Positions 3,156-27,567 of a DNA stretch of 28,914 nucleotides are shown here, piece by piece. Under the pieces are notes generated by a model. It saw only the letters and a program-made list of their open reading frames with translations, was not told the DNA's origin and did no database searches. Origin of the DNA: a virus; IMG/VR virus record IMGVR_UViG_3300037119_005840, positions 1-28,914 of that record; one strand, written 5' to 3'. Within the stretch, counting starts at the first letter, position 1. Every line of letters begins with the position of its first letter. The translations under genes and the position numbers were made by a program.

Positions 3156-3844
3156 CTGCCAAACAGCCGATGAGCTGCTGAAACGATCACTCGCAAAGCT
3201 GTGACCTGCAGCTCGTCTGCCAAACACGAAAGACTTGACACGGGTCTACCTGGTTGTTTGGCTTCGCGATGATGAAAGGACGATGCGCTGACCTGCAGGG
3301 GAAGGTCCGTGACCGTTGGTCAAACGGATGTTTCGGCGAAGTGCGGATCTCCTCCGCGCCGTCTGTTCTCAAGGTGCGTCACGGGTTCCATGTGGTCGGG
3401 GTTGACGCAACCTCGGACCCCGCAGAGGTGGTCGAGTTCGAGGTCACCGATCTCCCCGACGTGCTCGATGTAGACGGCTCGATGTGCGGATGTCGTTCGG
3501 CCCCTGAACCAGACCGTTCCGTATCCGGCCCCGTTCGTGCTGCCCTCCCACATCCAGCAGCCGGTGTCTGCGATCGAGAACCGCGCAAGTCCCAGGTGTG
3601 GACGGGGGGCGATCCCCCGCGCTCGGCGCTGAGTGGCCGCGTAGCACCGTTTGCACACGCCATGGGCGTAGGGCCGACCATGTGAGGGATCGGTGGCGCA
3701 CTCGGGAAGCTGGGCCACGTAGGGGCGATGGGGCGTGGCGTCGTAACACCGCCTGCATAGACCCCTGTACCGGTCCTGGGCCTTGCGCTCCTGGCATTGG
3801 CGGCATCTCATCCCTGGAGTGTAGGGGTCAGAGCTGTTTGGCAG
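3156..3844. repeat. Dispersed CTGCCAAACA / TGTTTGGCAG sites (four copies)
   Basis: Copies are at 3156-3166 (CTGCCAAACAG), 3217-3226 (CTGCCAAACA), 3255-3262 (TGTTTGGC, inverted) and 3834-3844 (CTGTTTGGCAG, inverted). The second and third form an inverted repeat that brackets a TTGACA at 3235-3240. The first and fourth flank the minus-strand HNH gene. All lie outside coding sequence. Operator sites are the simplest reading; no protein partner is known. Confidence 0.45.
3320..3811 (-). CDS. HNH endonuclease
   Basis: The 163-residue product has two small cysteine motifs at the N-terminus (MRCRQC with GLCRRC; C38 with GVCKRC) and an HNH core from about residue 85 to 150. Visible are CWMWEG, SAHRAVY (His110), LELDHLC (Asp127, His128) and GCVNPDHMEP (Asn137, His140), as in the HNH_3 type of phage endonuclease. 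Such stand-alone HNH enzymes nick or cut DNA and often act as homing endonucleases. It is the only HNH gene here on the minus strand. The start at ATG 3811 keeps the first zinc motif; the ribosome-binding site is weak. It is flanked by the TGTTTGGC-type sites. Confidence 0.85.
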   Translation of the reverse strand: MRCRQCQERKAQDRYRGLCRRCYDATPHRPYVAQLPECATDPSHGRPYAHGVCKRCYAATQRRARGIAPRPHLGLARFSIADTGCWMWEGSTNGAGYGTVWFRGRTTSAHRAVYIEHVGEIGDLELDHLCGVRGCVNPDHMEPVTHLENRRRGGDPHFAETSV

Positions 3845-3918
3845 CAACGGGTTGCCGACCCGGTCCGGGGACGGTACCGTGCTACCTGGGCGAACACTGA
3901 ACCTCCCACCGGGGCGTA

Positions 3919-3933
3919 CCGTACCTGGTACGA
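3919..3933 (+). promoter_or_regulatory. 13-bp palindrome overlapping a leaderless-type -10
   Basis: CGTACCTGGTACG (3919-3931) is a perfect palindrome around a central T and is repeated exactly at 7217-7229. Its right half forms part of an extended -10, TGGTACGAT (3925-3933). Six bases later is the ATG at 3940, the spacing of a leaderless actinobacterial promoter. A protein bound to the palindrome would cover the -10 and shut the promoter. Confidence 0.5.
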
Positions 3934-3939
3934 TATGGG

Positions 3940-4273
3940 CATGGACGAGAAGAAGACCAAGACCTACGACTCCTCGGTCAACGAGCGCCTCGGCGTCGAA
4001 CTTGCTCGCACCGTGAGCGGCTCGAAGACCCACCTGCGCTACATCGACAACGGCTGGCGCGAGACGATCTGCGGAGTTCGCGCACCGATCCGGATGGCTG
4101 ACCAGACCGCCGTCCCGACCTGCCACTCCTGCTACTCCGGCCCCCGCGAGGAGGAGATCGTCGAGAAGCCACGCGACTGGCAGGACGCGATGAACGAGCA
4201 CACCGATCAGTTGCACCGCGAGGGCTACCGCCCCGTGCCCGGTGAGTTCGGCAAGTGGAGCAAGGAGAACTGA
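3940..4273 (+). CDS. Small zinc-ribbon-like protein
   Basis: The product is about 111 residues. A central segment around GSKTHLRYIDNGWRETICG followed by VPTCHSCY (one Cys, then CxxC, with an upstream His) resembles the short zinc-binding modules found in many actinophage and actinobacterial proteins of unknown function. The C-terminal part is charged. I chose ATG 3940; ATG 3934 is also in frame. There is no Shine-Dalgarno before either, and the -10 position suggests a leaderless mRNA starting at 3940. It is first of the chain that runs to 7216. Confidence 0.7.
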
Positions 4274-16197: not shown

Positions 16198-16410
16198 GTG
16201 GAATACCGTCGACCGACGGATGCGGAGCTACGCGTTCTGCAGCTTGTCGCGAACGGGTTCACGGATGAATCAGCGGGCGCTGAACTGGGTCTGTCGAAGG
16301 AGACGACGCGGACCCAGATGAACAACGCGATGAGGAGACTGGGCGTGCACACACGGGCGAAGGCTGTTGCGATCTCGCTCTGCGAGGGGTGGATCGATTG
16401 CCCGGACTGA
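16198..16410 (+). CDS. LuxR/GerE-type HTH protein without receiver domain
   Basis: The 70-residue product is a single LuxR-type HTH: RRPTDAELRVLQLVANGFTD, AGAELGLSKETTRTQMNNAM and LGVHTRAKAVAISLCEGW. The LS-x-E-T-T-R-T-Q recognition helix and H-T-R-A-x-A-V close match GerE domains. GTG 16198 is chosen because GAAGGGG ends six bases upstream; the longer open frame lacks a better start. It is the second solitary LuxR-type protein in the window and is not a close copy of the 6104 product. It sits directly upstream of the Cas4/RecB-like nuclease gene and overlaps it by one base. Confidence 0.8.
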   Translation: MEYRRPTDAELRVLQLVANGFTDESAGAELGLSKETTRTQMNNAMRRLGVHTRAKAVAISLCEGWIDCPD

Positions 16411-17330
16411 TGGTTTCGCAATCCACGATCGCGACGTTCGACCGATGCAAACGCAAGTGGTGGCTGGCGGACTACCGCGGCCTCCGGCGCCCGAAGGAGT
16501 ACGCCTCCCCGCTGACGGTCGGCTCGCTCGTGCACGATGCGCTGGAGCAGTATTACCTCGGCGCCTACGGGGGCGGCGGTGTGTTCCTCGAGCCGATCGC
16601 CTGGGTCAAGAATCACGCGGTCGCGATGATCGAGGCCAACCCTGAGTTCGCCGAGGACATCGCGCGCGACGCCGAGATGGCGGGCATCATGGTCGACGGT
16701 TACATGGCCTGGCTGGAGGAGACCGGGGCGGATTCCGACTTTGCGCGGGTGGAGCCGGAGCGTGTCATCAAGGCGAAACTCTGGGACGGGATCGTGCTGA
16801 TCGGGCGCCTGGACGGGAAGGTCTACACGATCGACGGGTGGACCGGGTTCCTGGAGCACAAGTCGGTCACGAACTTCACCGACCTGCCCGCATACGCCCA
16901 GATCAACCGGCAGTTTCTGACCTATGACCTGCTGGAATACCTCGAGATCCTCGCCCAGGACGCCGCCCCGTTCCCGAAGGTGGACGGCGCCGTGTTGAAC
17001 ATGCTCCGAAGAGTCAAACGGACCGCGCGGGCCACCCCGCCGTTCTATGCACGGCACCGGGTCCAGCACAACGTCGAGGAGCTGCGGAACCACTGGCGAC
17101 ACGTCGTGGCGATCGCGCTCGAGATCCGCGCGGCGACCACGCGCCTGGACGCCGGGGAGTCCCACCAGCGGGTCGCTCCCCCGACACCGGCACGGGACTG
17201 CCGCTTCACGTGTGACTTCTTCAGTGTTTGCCCTCTGTTCGACGACGGCAGTGATGTTGAATCTGTCTTGGACTTCGAGTACGAGCACGTCGATCCGTTC
17301 GAGCGGTACCTCGAAGAGGCCGACGCATGA
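16410..17330 (+). CDS. Cas4/RecB-like PD-(D/E)XK exonuclease with Fe-S cysteines
   Basis: The product is about 306 residues. It has the RecB/AddB/Cas4 pattern: STIATFDRCKRKWW near the N-terminus (Cys13), His42 in SLVHDALEQYY, Asp135 in GRLDGKVYTID, Glu149 and Lys151 in FLEHKSV, and a C-terminal Cys264-x3-Cys268-x5-Cys274 in CRFTCDFFSVCPLF. The four cysteines match the Fe-S cluster of AddB/Cas4. It likely degrades or resects DNA ends for recombination with the Sak4-like ATPase downstream. The C-terminus FERYLEEADA recurs at the end of the HNH gene that follows. ATG 16410 overlaps the upstream stop. TTG 16398 has a better Shine-Dalgarno and is a real alternative, and GTG 16389 is also possible. 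Confidence 0.85.
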   Translation: MVSQSTIATFDRCKRKWWLADYRGLRRPKEYASPLTVGSLVHDALEQYYLGAYGGGGVFLEPIAWVKNHAVAMIEANPEFAEDIARDAEMAGIMVDGYMAWLEETGADSDFARVEPERVIKAKLWDGIVLIGRLDGKVYTIDGWTGFLEHKSVTNFTDLPAYAQINRQFLTYDLLEYLEILAQDAAPFPKVDGAVLNMLRRVKRTARATPPFYARHRVQHNVEELRNHWRHVVAIALEIRAATTRLDAGESHQRVAPPTPARDCRFTCDFFSVCPLFDDGSDVESVLDFEYEHVDPFERYLEEADA

Positions 17331-17831
17331 GCTACAAGGATGTCTTCGTCGACAGCAACGGCGGCGGGCCGTACGAGTGCTTCGTGTGTCACGAGCCTGT
17401 TTCCCGCAGGGAACTCCGTGTACATCATGTCGACCACGACCACTACAACGACGTCCCCGACAACCTTGTTGCGGTTCACCACGGGTGCCACTCGCATCAC
17501 CACAACAGCGGGAAGGTGCACACCGCCGAGACACGTCGCCACATGAGCGAGGCCCATGTTGGTGTGAAGCTCAGTCCCGAGCATGCTGCTGCGATTCGTG
17601 CCGGTCACGATCGCTCTCGTGCAAACGGTCGAGTGTGGTCCGTCTCCGACGAGGGCCGCAAACAGCTCCGAGAGGCAAACCGGAGGCGGCGAGGGCTGCC
17701 GCACGTCGAGATTCGGCTGAAGTGCAGAGATTGCGACATGGTCACAACCGCAGGTCCGCTTCGTTGTCACGAGATCGCGAGCGGCCACGGACAGGGATTC
17801 GACCGTTACCTGGAGGAGGCAGACGCGTGAG
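17298..17831 (+). repeat. 34-bp direct repeat encoding the same protein tail, 500 bp apart
   Basis: The copies at 17298-17331 and 17798-17831 share 28 of 34 bases. All six differences are at third codon positions, so both encode F-(E/D)-R-Y-L-E-E-A-D-A-stop. One ends the Cas4/RecB-like gene and the other ends the HNH gene. The repeat brackets a 500-bp insert that is almost exactly the HNH gene. Confidence 0.85.
17327..17830 (+). CDS. HNH homing-type endonuclease with NUMOD3 motif
   Basis: The 167-residue product has an N-terminal HNH domain: ECFVCHEPVSRRELRVHHVD, then HDHYNDVPDNLVAVHHGCHS (His/Asp, Asn and His ligands and CxxC at Cys18/Cys21). A NUMOD3-like segment follows (HTAETRRHMSEAHVGVKLSP), typical of the DNA-binding part of homing endonucleases. 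A CxxC (LKCRDCDMV) lies near the end. The last ten residues, FDRYLEEADA, repeat the end of the upstream nuclease, which suggests this gene inserted there and fused to the displaced tail. Its ATG overlaps the upstream stop as ATGA, and its stop overlaps the next gene start. Confidence 0.88.
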   Translation: MSYKDVFVDSNGGGPYECFVCHEPVSRRELRVHHVDHDHYNDVPDNLVAVHHGCHSHHHNSGKVHTAETRRHMSEAHVGVKLSPEHAAAIRAGHDRSRANGRVWSVSDEGRKQLREANRRRRGLPHVEIRLKCRDCDMVTTAGPLRCHEIASGHGQGFDRYLEEADA

Positions 17832-18021
17832 TGAGACAGAGGGATACGTCCTGAGAATACGGGCCGGTGAGGGTCTGAAGGAGATCGCGATCGACACGTT
17901 CGAGATCGAAGAGAGCGGTGTTTTGATGGCGAAGGTCGGCACACACAGCTACTGGTTCTCACCGTCGGAGTGGATGTCGGTGCGCGACAAGAACGCGCCC
18001 GCCGAGACGGGGACGATGTAA
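17827..18021 (+). CDS. Hypothetical protein
   Basis: The 64-residue product (MSETEGYVLRIRAGEGLKEI...) looks like a small beta-rich domain ending WFSPSEWMSVRDKNAPAETG. GTG 17827 overlaps the upstream stop as GTGA. Before HNH insertion this gene would have directly followed the Cas4/RecB-like gene. No family is recognised. Confidence 0.65.
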   Translation: MSETEGYVLRIRAGEGLKEIAIDTFEIEESGVLMAKVGTHSYWFSPSEWMSVRDKNAPAETGTM

Positions 18022-18879
18022 ATGGCCGAAGCAGTGAAGGTCAAGCCCGAGGATGTGATCAAGCAGGCGGTCCCGATTCGTCCCCTGAAGATCCTCGTGC
18101 ACGCGGATTGGGGCGAGGGCAAGTCTTGGTTGGGTGCAACAACGCCCGCGCCGCGGTTGATCATTGACGTCGAGGGCGGCTCGGAGTTCGTGCTCGGGCG
18201 CAAGGTCATGTGGGACAACCCAAATGACCCGCCGCCGGACATGACGGGCGCCGACACATGCATCGTGCGGATCTCCTCGCTGCGGGATCTGCAGGTCGTG
18301 TACCAGTGGCTGCAACGCGGACAGCACGAGTTCGTGTCGGTCACCATCGATTCCCTGTCGGAGCTGCAGAAACGGATCGTGGACGAGGTCGCCGGATCCG
18401 AGCAGCTCACCGCGCAGGACTGGGGCAGCGTGTTCCGCCGGGGCGAGGCGCTCGTGCGCCGGTTCCGGGATCTGTCCACGAACCCCGTGCGCCCGCTGCT
18501 GTGTCTGTGCTTCCTGACCGGCACCTCCGAACGGGGGCGTGCTGAGGTGAAGGTCGGGCCATACCTGGCGGGACAGCTCGGCGCGACGGTGCCGGGGTTC
18601 GTGGATATCGTCGGCATGCTGCGGATCGTCGACACCGAGACCGGCGAGCGCCGCGTGCTGTTCGTGCACCCGCAGCGTGGGCGCCAGAACATCGAGCAGG
18701 GTTTCGACATGAAGTCGGTGCCGTTTCGAATGATCGCGAAGGATCGCACGCACTCGTTTCCGACCGGCGAGATCGACGTCACCTGGACCGAGGCCGCCGG
18801 ATGGAATCAGAACATCACGACGATGATGCAGATCGTCACAGACACCCTCGCCGAGAGGGAGAAGGAGGTTGCAGTATGA
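18022..18879 (+). CDS. Sak4-like RecA-fold ATPase (AAA_24 type)
   Basis: The 285-residue product has a Walker A motif HADWGEGKSWLG (Lys34, Ser35), with Ala where the first Gly of the P-loop normally sits. It then has LIIDVEGGSE and a Walker B strand VSVTIDSLSEL. The pattern and length fit phage Sak4-type single-strand annealing/RecA-like ATPases. These work with a phage SSB in recombination, and the next gene has an SSB-like tail. It lies between the Cas4/RecB-like nuclease and that gene. The ATG follows the upstream TAA directly. Confidence 0.82.
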   Translation: MAEAVKVKPEDVIKQAVPIRPLKILVHADWGEGKSWLGATTPAPRLIIDVEGGSEFVLGRKVMWDNPNDPPPDMTGADTCIVRISSLRDLQVVYQWLQRGQHEFVSVTIDSLSELQKRIVDEVAGSEQLTAQDWGSVFRRGEALVRRFRDLSTNPVRPLLCLCFLTGTSERGRAEVKVGPYLAGQLGATVPGFVDIVGMLRIVDTETGERRVLFVHPQRGRQNIEQGFDMKSVPFRMIAKDRTHSFPTGEIDVTWTEAAGWNQNITTMMQIVTDTLAEREKEVAV

Positions 18880-26900: not shown

Positions 26901-27190
26901 GTGAACGCGAGCCGATGGATTCCGTCGACCTGGCGTTGGTGCTGCCGGACGGCACGGAGCTGGCCTACGGGCCGGTGCCGTGTTCGATTGCTCCGGCGGT
27001 CGGTGAGCGGATCACCTTCCAGCGGTCTGATCGCGAGGGGAAGCTGACGCCCGACGAACACAACCTGGAGGAGCCGCGGCACTGGGTCGTGCTCGGACGC
27101 GAGTGGGTCATCCGGCAGAAGCCGTGGCCGCACGTCCCGATCGCGTTCCTGGTGCTGCGTCTCGGGTACGAGGGGTCGGGGTCGGGTTGA
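26897..27190 (+). CDS. Hypothetical protein (97 aa)
   Basis: The product (MSEREPMDSVDLALVLPDGT...) looks like a beta-rich domain (VGERITFQRSDREGKL, HWVVLGREWVI). GTG 26897 overlaps the upstream stop as GTGA and the product ends GYEGSGSG. No family is recognised. Confidence 0.62.
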   Translation: MSEREPMDSVDLALVLPDGTELAYGPVPCSIAPAVGERITFQRSDREGKLTPDEHNLEEPRHWVVLGREWVIRQKPWPHVPIAFLVLRLGYEGSGSG

Positions 27191-27567
27191 AGGGGTTCCT
27201 GCGGACCTGCGCGGATGTGAGCTGCGGGGTGTTGGTCTCCGCGGCGAGCGGACCGTACTGCGCGGAGCATACGCGAGTGCAGGCCGCGGCGAAGTCGATC
27301 CGGGACAACGTGCTGCACTCGGGATCGGACTGGCGTTGGGTGTACAAGACGCGAAGGTGGGCGGGGTTGCGGCGCGAAGTGTTACGGGATCAACCCTGGT
27401 GCGCGGAGGTTGGTTGTTTCGAGCTTGCGACCGATGTCGACCATGTTGTCCCGTTGCAGGAGGGTGGGCCACCGTTCGATCGGGTGAATCTGAGAGGTCT
27501 TTGTCGCGGCTGCCACAGCGCGAAGACGAACAAGGAGGTTCGAACGCGTGCCGCGGGGCGTCTATGA
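27187..27567 (+). CDS. HNH endonuclease (McrA/terminase-associated type)
   Basis: The 126-residue product has an N-terminal Cys cluster (RTCADVSCG, GPYCAEH), the Y-x-x-x-x-W-x-x-LR segment (VYKTRRWAGLRREVLRDQPW), then DVDHVVPLQEGGPPFDRVNL and LCRGCHSAKTNKE. His86, Asn101 and His110 form the HNH triad and CxxC pairs hold zinc. This type often sits next to terminase genes in phages and is needed for packaging in some. No terminase is visible before the window ends. TTG 27187 overlaps the upstream stop as TTGA and is a less common start. Confidence 0.85.
   Translation: MKGFLRTCADVSCGVLVSAASGPYCAEHTRVQAAAKSIRDNVLHSGSDWRWVYKTRRWAGLRREVLRDQPWCAEVGCFELATDVDHVVPLQEGGPPFDRVNLRGLCRGCHSAKTNKEVRTRAAGRL

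Follow-up and report, generated by a model that had tools for sequence, protein, structure and literature searches.

A wobble-recoded copy of a Cas4-like gene ending on both sides of an HNH gene suggests homing with a substitute tail in an uncultivated virus

How can a nuclease gene settle between tightly overlapping replication genes, and why should two neighbouring genes end in nearly the same ten codons? Both questions are raised by an uncultivated virus, of which a fragment of 28,914 bp is analysed here and termed the window, and whose replication genes (DNA polymerase I, an SNF2-type helicase, a Cas4/RecB-like exonuclease and a Sak4/RecA-like ATPase) resemble those of actinobacterial phages. 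The host gene of interest encodes a Cas4/RecB-like PD-(D/E)XK exonuclease (16389..17330, plus strand; PF12705, E=1.5e-16; PHROG 1218 exonuclease, 8e-33). Its product can be aligned from end to end with Cas4-family exonucleases of actinophages and retains the conserved residues C20, C271, C275 and C281; the gene is complete and apparently intact. It is followed on the same strand by an HNH gene (17327..17830), which it overlaps as ATGA, and this in turn overlaps as GTGA a 64-aa ORF (17827..18021) for which no relative was found. The Sak4/RecA-like AAA ATPase gene (18022..18879, plus strand; PHROG 124 Sak4-like, 5.7e-20; PF13479), the usual next gene after Cas4 in relatives, completes the locus.

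The Cas4-like ORF (16389-17330) ends in ...DPFERYLEEADA and the HNH ORF (17327-17830) in ...GHGQGFDRYLEEADA. A preliminary description of this DNA had reported ten-codon ends repeated 500 bp apart with six wobble differences, and this was confirmed in every detail. The copies lie at 17298-17331 and 17798-17831, offset by 500 bp and each in frame with its own gene. They share 28 of 34 bases, and all six differences fall at third codon positions, five being synonymous and one exchanging E for D. Identity sets in sharply at TTC, preceded by GATCCG in the first copy and CAGGGA in the second. Each copy also includes the bases at which its gene overlaps the start of the following one (ATGA and then GTGA), together with a Shine-Dalgarno-like sequence (GAAGAGG or GGAGGAGG, respectively).

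Such a resemblance is rare among gene ends. Same-strand ORF ends no more than 2.5 kb apart were compared across the window and the collected loci, giving 29,264 pairs, among which the Cas4/HNH pair scored 9 of 10 identical residues. Only one other pair exceeded 7/10; it consists of antisense ORFs in locus L067 and contains an N, and all remaining pairs scored 7/10 or less. The L067 pair (minus strand, ORF ends at 925 and 1504) has 10 of 10 identical residues 579 bp apart with one ambiguous base, and has the look of a repeat or an assembly artefact. When the flanks of 19 homing genes were locally aligned, the window scored 22, whereas shuffled sequences reached at most 16. Of the 19, this is the one gene with the host-gene tail repeated on its far side, where it is in frame with the nuclease; the same alignment detected no displaced tail at the other 18, matches in tRNA arms aside. 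Those matches lay only in flanking tRNA genes, at two genes in tRNA clusters, and the repeats on either side of GodonK gp128 and Sixama gp134 were discounted as the usual resemblance among tRNAs. The Gordonia phages Sixama and GodonK (L110 and L108) carry several HNH genes within arrays of tRNA genes; some of them share about 10-15 bp with the end of a tRNA, and the two in GodonK had no match in the stretch of Phendrix compared.

The third-position pattern bears on how the two copies arose. If substitutions were evenly spread, the probability that all six would fall at third positions is P=3.5e-4. A 34-bp duplication made within one genome at insertion, through target-site duplication or template switching and followed by synonymous drift, would explain why the two copies flank the insert exactly, and the start-codon overlap and Shine-Dalgarno-like bases present in both could constrain part of them. 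The six changes could also have accrued after such a duplication if both copies were under selection at the protein level. However, this demands selection on the tail appended to the HNH protein as well, and if half of the changes arose in an unconstrained copy, the chance of the pattern is estimated at about 0.04 (one third cubed), which weakens the explanation. The insert, moreover, carries no enzyme known to create such duplications, and we regard this origin as improbable.

To which gene the tail belongs is indicated by relatives of the Cas4-like protein. Ten homologues from named phages and IMG/VR, plus 80 more from IMG/VR, were compared, and all 90 of these HNH-less relatives end in DPxx(R/Y)Y and a short tail, with NP in a few. 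A recombinase gene or a small gene usually follows directly, and no HNH gene was seen at the Cas4 3' junction among relatives whose junction was read. The tail is therefore the normal Cas4 C-terminus, and the first copy, FERYLEEADA-stop (17298..17330, plus strand), completes the family's DPxxRY ending. The preliminary description had held that its reading would fail if HNH-less relatives lacked the tail at this position; all 90 have it there. The LEEADA part is not conserved at the level of the Cas4 family, and therefore both copies should derive from closely related Cas4 genes. While the distant relatives establish the tail as native, the two spellings are not distinguishable from them.

A pair of Cas4 genes from collected loci illustrates how two spellings of one tail can coexist. 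The genes of the sister phages L012 and L013 are 91% identical, and their tails are identical in protein and differ in DNA at third positions only, so two lineages can indeed hold identical Cas4 tails with differences confined to third positions. Homology between these two loci ends with the Cas4 stop codon, beyond which each has a small gene of its own. The small genes between Cas4 and Sak4 (L012:4923-5070 and L013:4923-5136, from one metagenome) are unrelated, and the breakpoints lie at the Cas4 stop and within the last codons of the small gene.

The inserted gene is, judged by its sequence, of the homing type, combining HNH motif residues with a NUMOD DNA-binding motif. Its product matches NUMOD3 (PF07460) at 25.1 bits against a cut-off of 20.4 and PHROG 9443 HNH at 6.5e-8, while the match to Pfam HNH (PF01844) is weak (E=0.016; 15.8 against a cut-off of 21.4). 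The pattern HH..HDH, N, H...CHS.HH is common to this protein and its relatives L062 and L100, except for one D/N change. GC3 is 0.71 in the HNH gene against 0.87 in Cas4 and is lower than in its neighbours. The AlphaFold model of the protein has a pLDDT of 45, matches in bacterial genomes are weak, and a tblastn search for HNH relatives in phages returned nothing convincing. Two more HNH-type genes lie in the window (3320-4216, minus strand, and 27103-27567, plus strand; PF13392 HNH_3 and PF01844 HNH), and their flanks are not duplicated.

The nuclease appears to end before the repeated codons begin. Its C-terminal finger, CRDCDMVTTAGPLRCHEIASGH, followed by GQG (17723..17797, plus strand), is presumably the normal end of the enzyme. 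The GIY-YIG nucleases of Sixama (gp173), Phendrix (gp172) and GodonK (gp187), and those of L093-L095, are closed by this finger as well, identically spaced, and continue beyond it for a further 3-8 residues that are unrelated. The HNH relatives L062 and L100 have neither finger nor tail and are located at an overlapping polA/ruvC junction, so that this group of nucleases occurs at different gene junctions. Since finger-bearing nucleases stop 3-8 residues on and L062 and L100 lack the tail, the tail is an appendage. The FxRYLEEADA segment was absent from the related nucleases, although the preliminary description had allowed that it might prove a conserved part of the family.

The same evidence bears on a functional reading, in which the Cas4 tail was kept on the HNH protein for the peptide's own job, such as binding a Sak4/RecA-like partner by mimicry. 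The conservation of DPxx(R/Y)Y at the Cas4 C-terminus suggests that this element may bind something. The HNH copy, however, lacks the conserved DP, the LEEADA that does match is not conserved in the Cas4 family and related nucleases lack the tail, which together make mimicry highly improbable.

A group I intron or intein around the HNH gene was rejected. No Rfam intron match was found in the window, the Cas4 stop precedes the body of the HNH protein, and the HNH gene has its own start and stop. The absence of an Rfam match and the separate stops of the two genes uphold the earlier proposal of insertion without an intron or intein.

We consider it probable that a homing gene arrived together with a substitute, wobble-recoded 3' end for the Cas4-like gene, and that the old tail stayed behind it as an in-frame fusion. 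A free-standing HNH homing gene would have entered the Cas4-like gene ten codons before its stop, bringing a host-gene 3' end from a related phage that differed at wobble positions. With this substitute 3' end, the host protein would remain complete. The original tail, putatively the second copy, FDRYLEEADA-stop (17798..17830, plus strand), would have been displaced 500 bp downstream to become the in-frame C-terminus of the HNH protein, carrying with it the AGGAGG ribosome-binding site of the next gene and the GTGA overlap. The position of the copies, our sole guide to which is the newcomer, points to the upstream one. Retention of the second copy preserves GGAGGAGG and GTGA for the next gene, which may be a reason why it was kept.

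By analogy with the WHO elements of yeasts, the HNH enzyme would cut HNH-less alleles near the DP/FDRY codons, and recoding of the tail would protect the host allele from being cut. Repair would then copy the nuclease gene and the resistant upstream 3' end into the cut allele, with the old 3' end staying downstream and serving as a short right-hand homology arm. Counting against homing, this would-be arm is only 34 bp long and 82% identical, and a displaced tail was seen at none of the other 18 homing genes.

Recombination without any endonuclease drive gives the same anatomy and is the main rival to homing. Here, mosaic (illegitimate) recombination between related phages would have joined the HNH gene to the Cas4 end, with one crossover in homologous Cas4 sequence and the other placed at random just before FDRYLEEADA, and the recoding would confer no resistance. 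The Cas4/Sak4 junction is a natural spot for such swaps: L012 and L013 differ in the small non-nuclease gene that they have there, the breakpoint lying at the Cas4 stop, and L001 and L014 likewise carry small genes at this junction. In all four loci, these small unrelated genes occupy the spot of the 64-aa ORF. Yet the gene inserted in the window is a homing-type nuclease (NUMOD3, HNH), and recoded 3' ends adjoin homing genes in sister phages, as at the helicase gene of Phendrix, whose tail has diverged further than that of any other gene with a well-conserved core in the comparison. We therefore judge undirected recombination unlikely, if less so than duplication within one genome.

Megablast of 20 kb against phages returned no close HNH-less sister. 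Close relatives were also absent from IMG/VR when searched with the Cas4, HNH, 64-aa ORF and Sak4 peptides, from a search with the exact degenerate tail pattern, and from tblastn of the 64-aa ORF and a search among plasmids. Because no close HNH-less relative was found, we infer the empty site, the polarity of the change and the donor. The earlier claim of a homing insertion with a substitute tail is thus borne out in part: the tail is native to Cas4 and foreign to the nuclease, and sister phages have recoded 3' ends, whereas the uninterrupted Cas4 gene ending in FDRYLEEADA directly before the gene at 17827, which that claim predicted, was not found.

Sister phages with and without a homing gene offer comparisons in cultivated phages. 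In Talia1610, a GIY-YIG gene that is absent from Mimi and Racecar lies between nrdA and nrdB, making this a clean comparison of genomes with and without a homing gene. Between Talia1610 and Mimi, 31 of 41 differences in nrdA fall in the final 159 nt, a stretch in which Mimi and Racecar are identical. The concentration at the 3' end is strong (Fisher P=5e-21 for the last 90 nt), with little change to the protein. The 31 changes in this Arthrobacter phage are mostly synonymous and directly precede the GIY-YIG gene (L112:1849-4705 against L113:3113-5251). A donor of the recoded nrdA tail was looked for, and none was found.

The Phendrix/GodonK pair is similar. In Phendrix the helicase gene is followed by a GIY-YIG gene that is missing from GodonK at that place; the two helicase genes show 13 differences in the last 39 nt (P=2.5e-11), and the last 36 nt are 69% identical against 97.6% for the core. 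Across a 40-kb comparison of the two phages, no other gene with a conserved core has a tail as diverged as this one. GodonK polA, which precedes GIY187, shows 66% identity to its Phendrix counterpart, and identity returns to 97% precisely at the start codon of the gene that follows. Against a background of about 95-97% identity in this pair (GodonK, L108; Phendrix, L109), a diverged allele takes the place of most of polA to one side of a GIY-YIG gene, and the Cas4-like exonuclease gene is recoded at its 5' end, beside another GIY-YIG gene (gp182). The Talia1610, Phendrix and GodonK comparisons thus indicate that gene ends beside these homing genes are recoded or replaced. The comparisons leave the direction of change unproven. 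Although their genes are GIY-YIG rather than HNH, these pairs lend independent support, by analogy, to tail recoding in the window.

These observations suggest that swaps of gene endings accompany phage homing genes more widely. Tentatively, it is possible that free-standing homing genes of phages commonly travel as a unit of recoded host 3' end and nuclease, a home-and-rescue drive that rewrites gene endings, and that in the window the displaced tail was also captured as nuclease C-terminus and right homology arm. Pairs that differ by one homing gene (Talia1610/Mimi and Phendrix/GodonK) make the idea directly testable in cultivated phages. If homing with a substitute tail is correct, the tail-swapping mode that has been studied in yeast, and is inferred for mitochondria of fungi, would extend to bacteriophages. 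It would also explain how a selfish nuclease can enter essential genes that overlap tightly, with no need of an intron or intein, and protect the allele at once by wobble recoding.

Intronless homing with co-conversion is itself well known in phages (PMC2988022). The seg and mob genes of T4 resemble the window in being free-standing GIY-YIG or HNH genes at gene junctions, and are associated with co-conversion of flanking host sequence and marker exclusion. Their cut sites, in contrast, often lie hundreds to thousands of bp away, and the parts of that account available to us describe no duplicated host-gene tail (PMC2988022). A survey of phage exchange boundaries reports homing genes adjoining essential genes at the borders of sequence exchange, as at GodonK polA; it concerns large islands of homing genes, and its accessible portions do not mention recoded or duplicated gene ends (PMC10448857). 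A search of the open-licence literature, a weak negative, found no phage case with a duplicated host-gene tail.

The closest parallels come from eukaryotes. In the WHO elements of Torulaspora and Lachancea yeasts, the nuclease cuts the allele without the element, and repair copies the nuclease gene and the resistant upstream 3' end while the old 3' end stays downstream (PMC7282813). As in the window, the homing gene sits just 3' of a host gene and replaces the end of that gene, a displaced fragment lies downstream, neither intron nor intein is involved and the nuclease bears a zinc finger; the host 3' end is replaced with a resistant version at each homing (PMC7282813). Unlike the window, these elements occupy the eukaryotic nuclear gene FBA1, use an intein-derived HO/VDE nuclease rather than HNH, leave fragments of hundreds of bp that need not keep a reading frame, and have had their cutting shown experimentally (PMC7282813). 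Mobile ORFs of fungal mitochondria (Allomyces atp6; Glomus atp6, atp9, cox2 and nad3) likewise insert a foreign C-terminus with an endonuclease gene and displace the native C-terminus downstream, and the DNA of the two copies is far more diverged than the protein (PMC3630166). They differ in being organellar and LAGLIDADG or GIY-YIG, in having tails that are mostly longer, and in that some inserts are in frame with the host gene (PMC3630166). The window shares with both systems a complete host gene upstream, a second copy of its 3' end downstream, and 3' ends that differ mainly synonymously (six of six changes at third positions, five synonymous). Its anatomy is thus known from yeast and fungal mitochondria, and the old tail kept in frame is its unusual feature.
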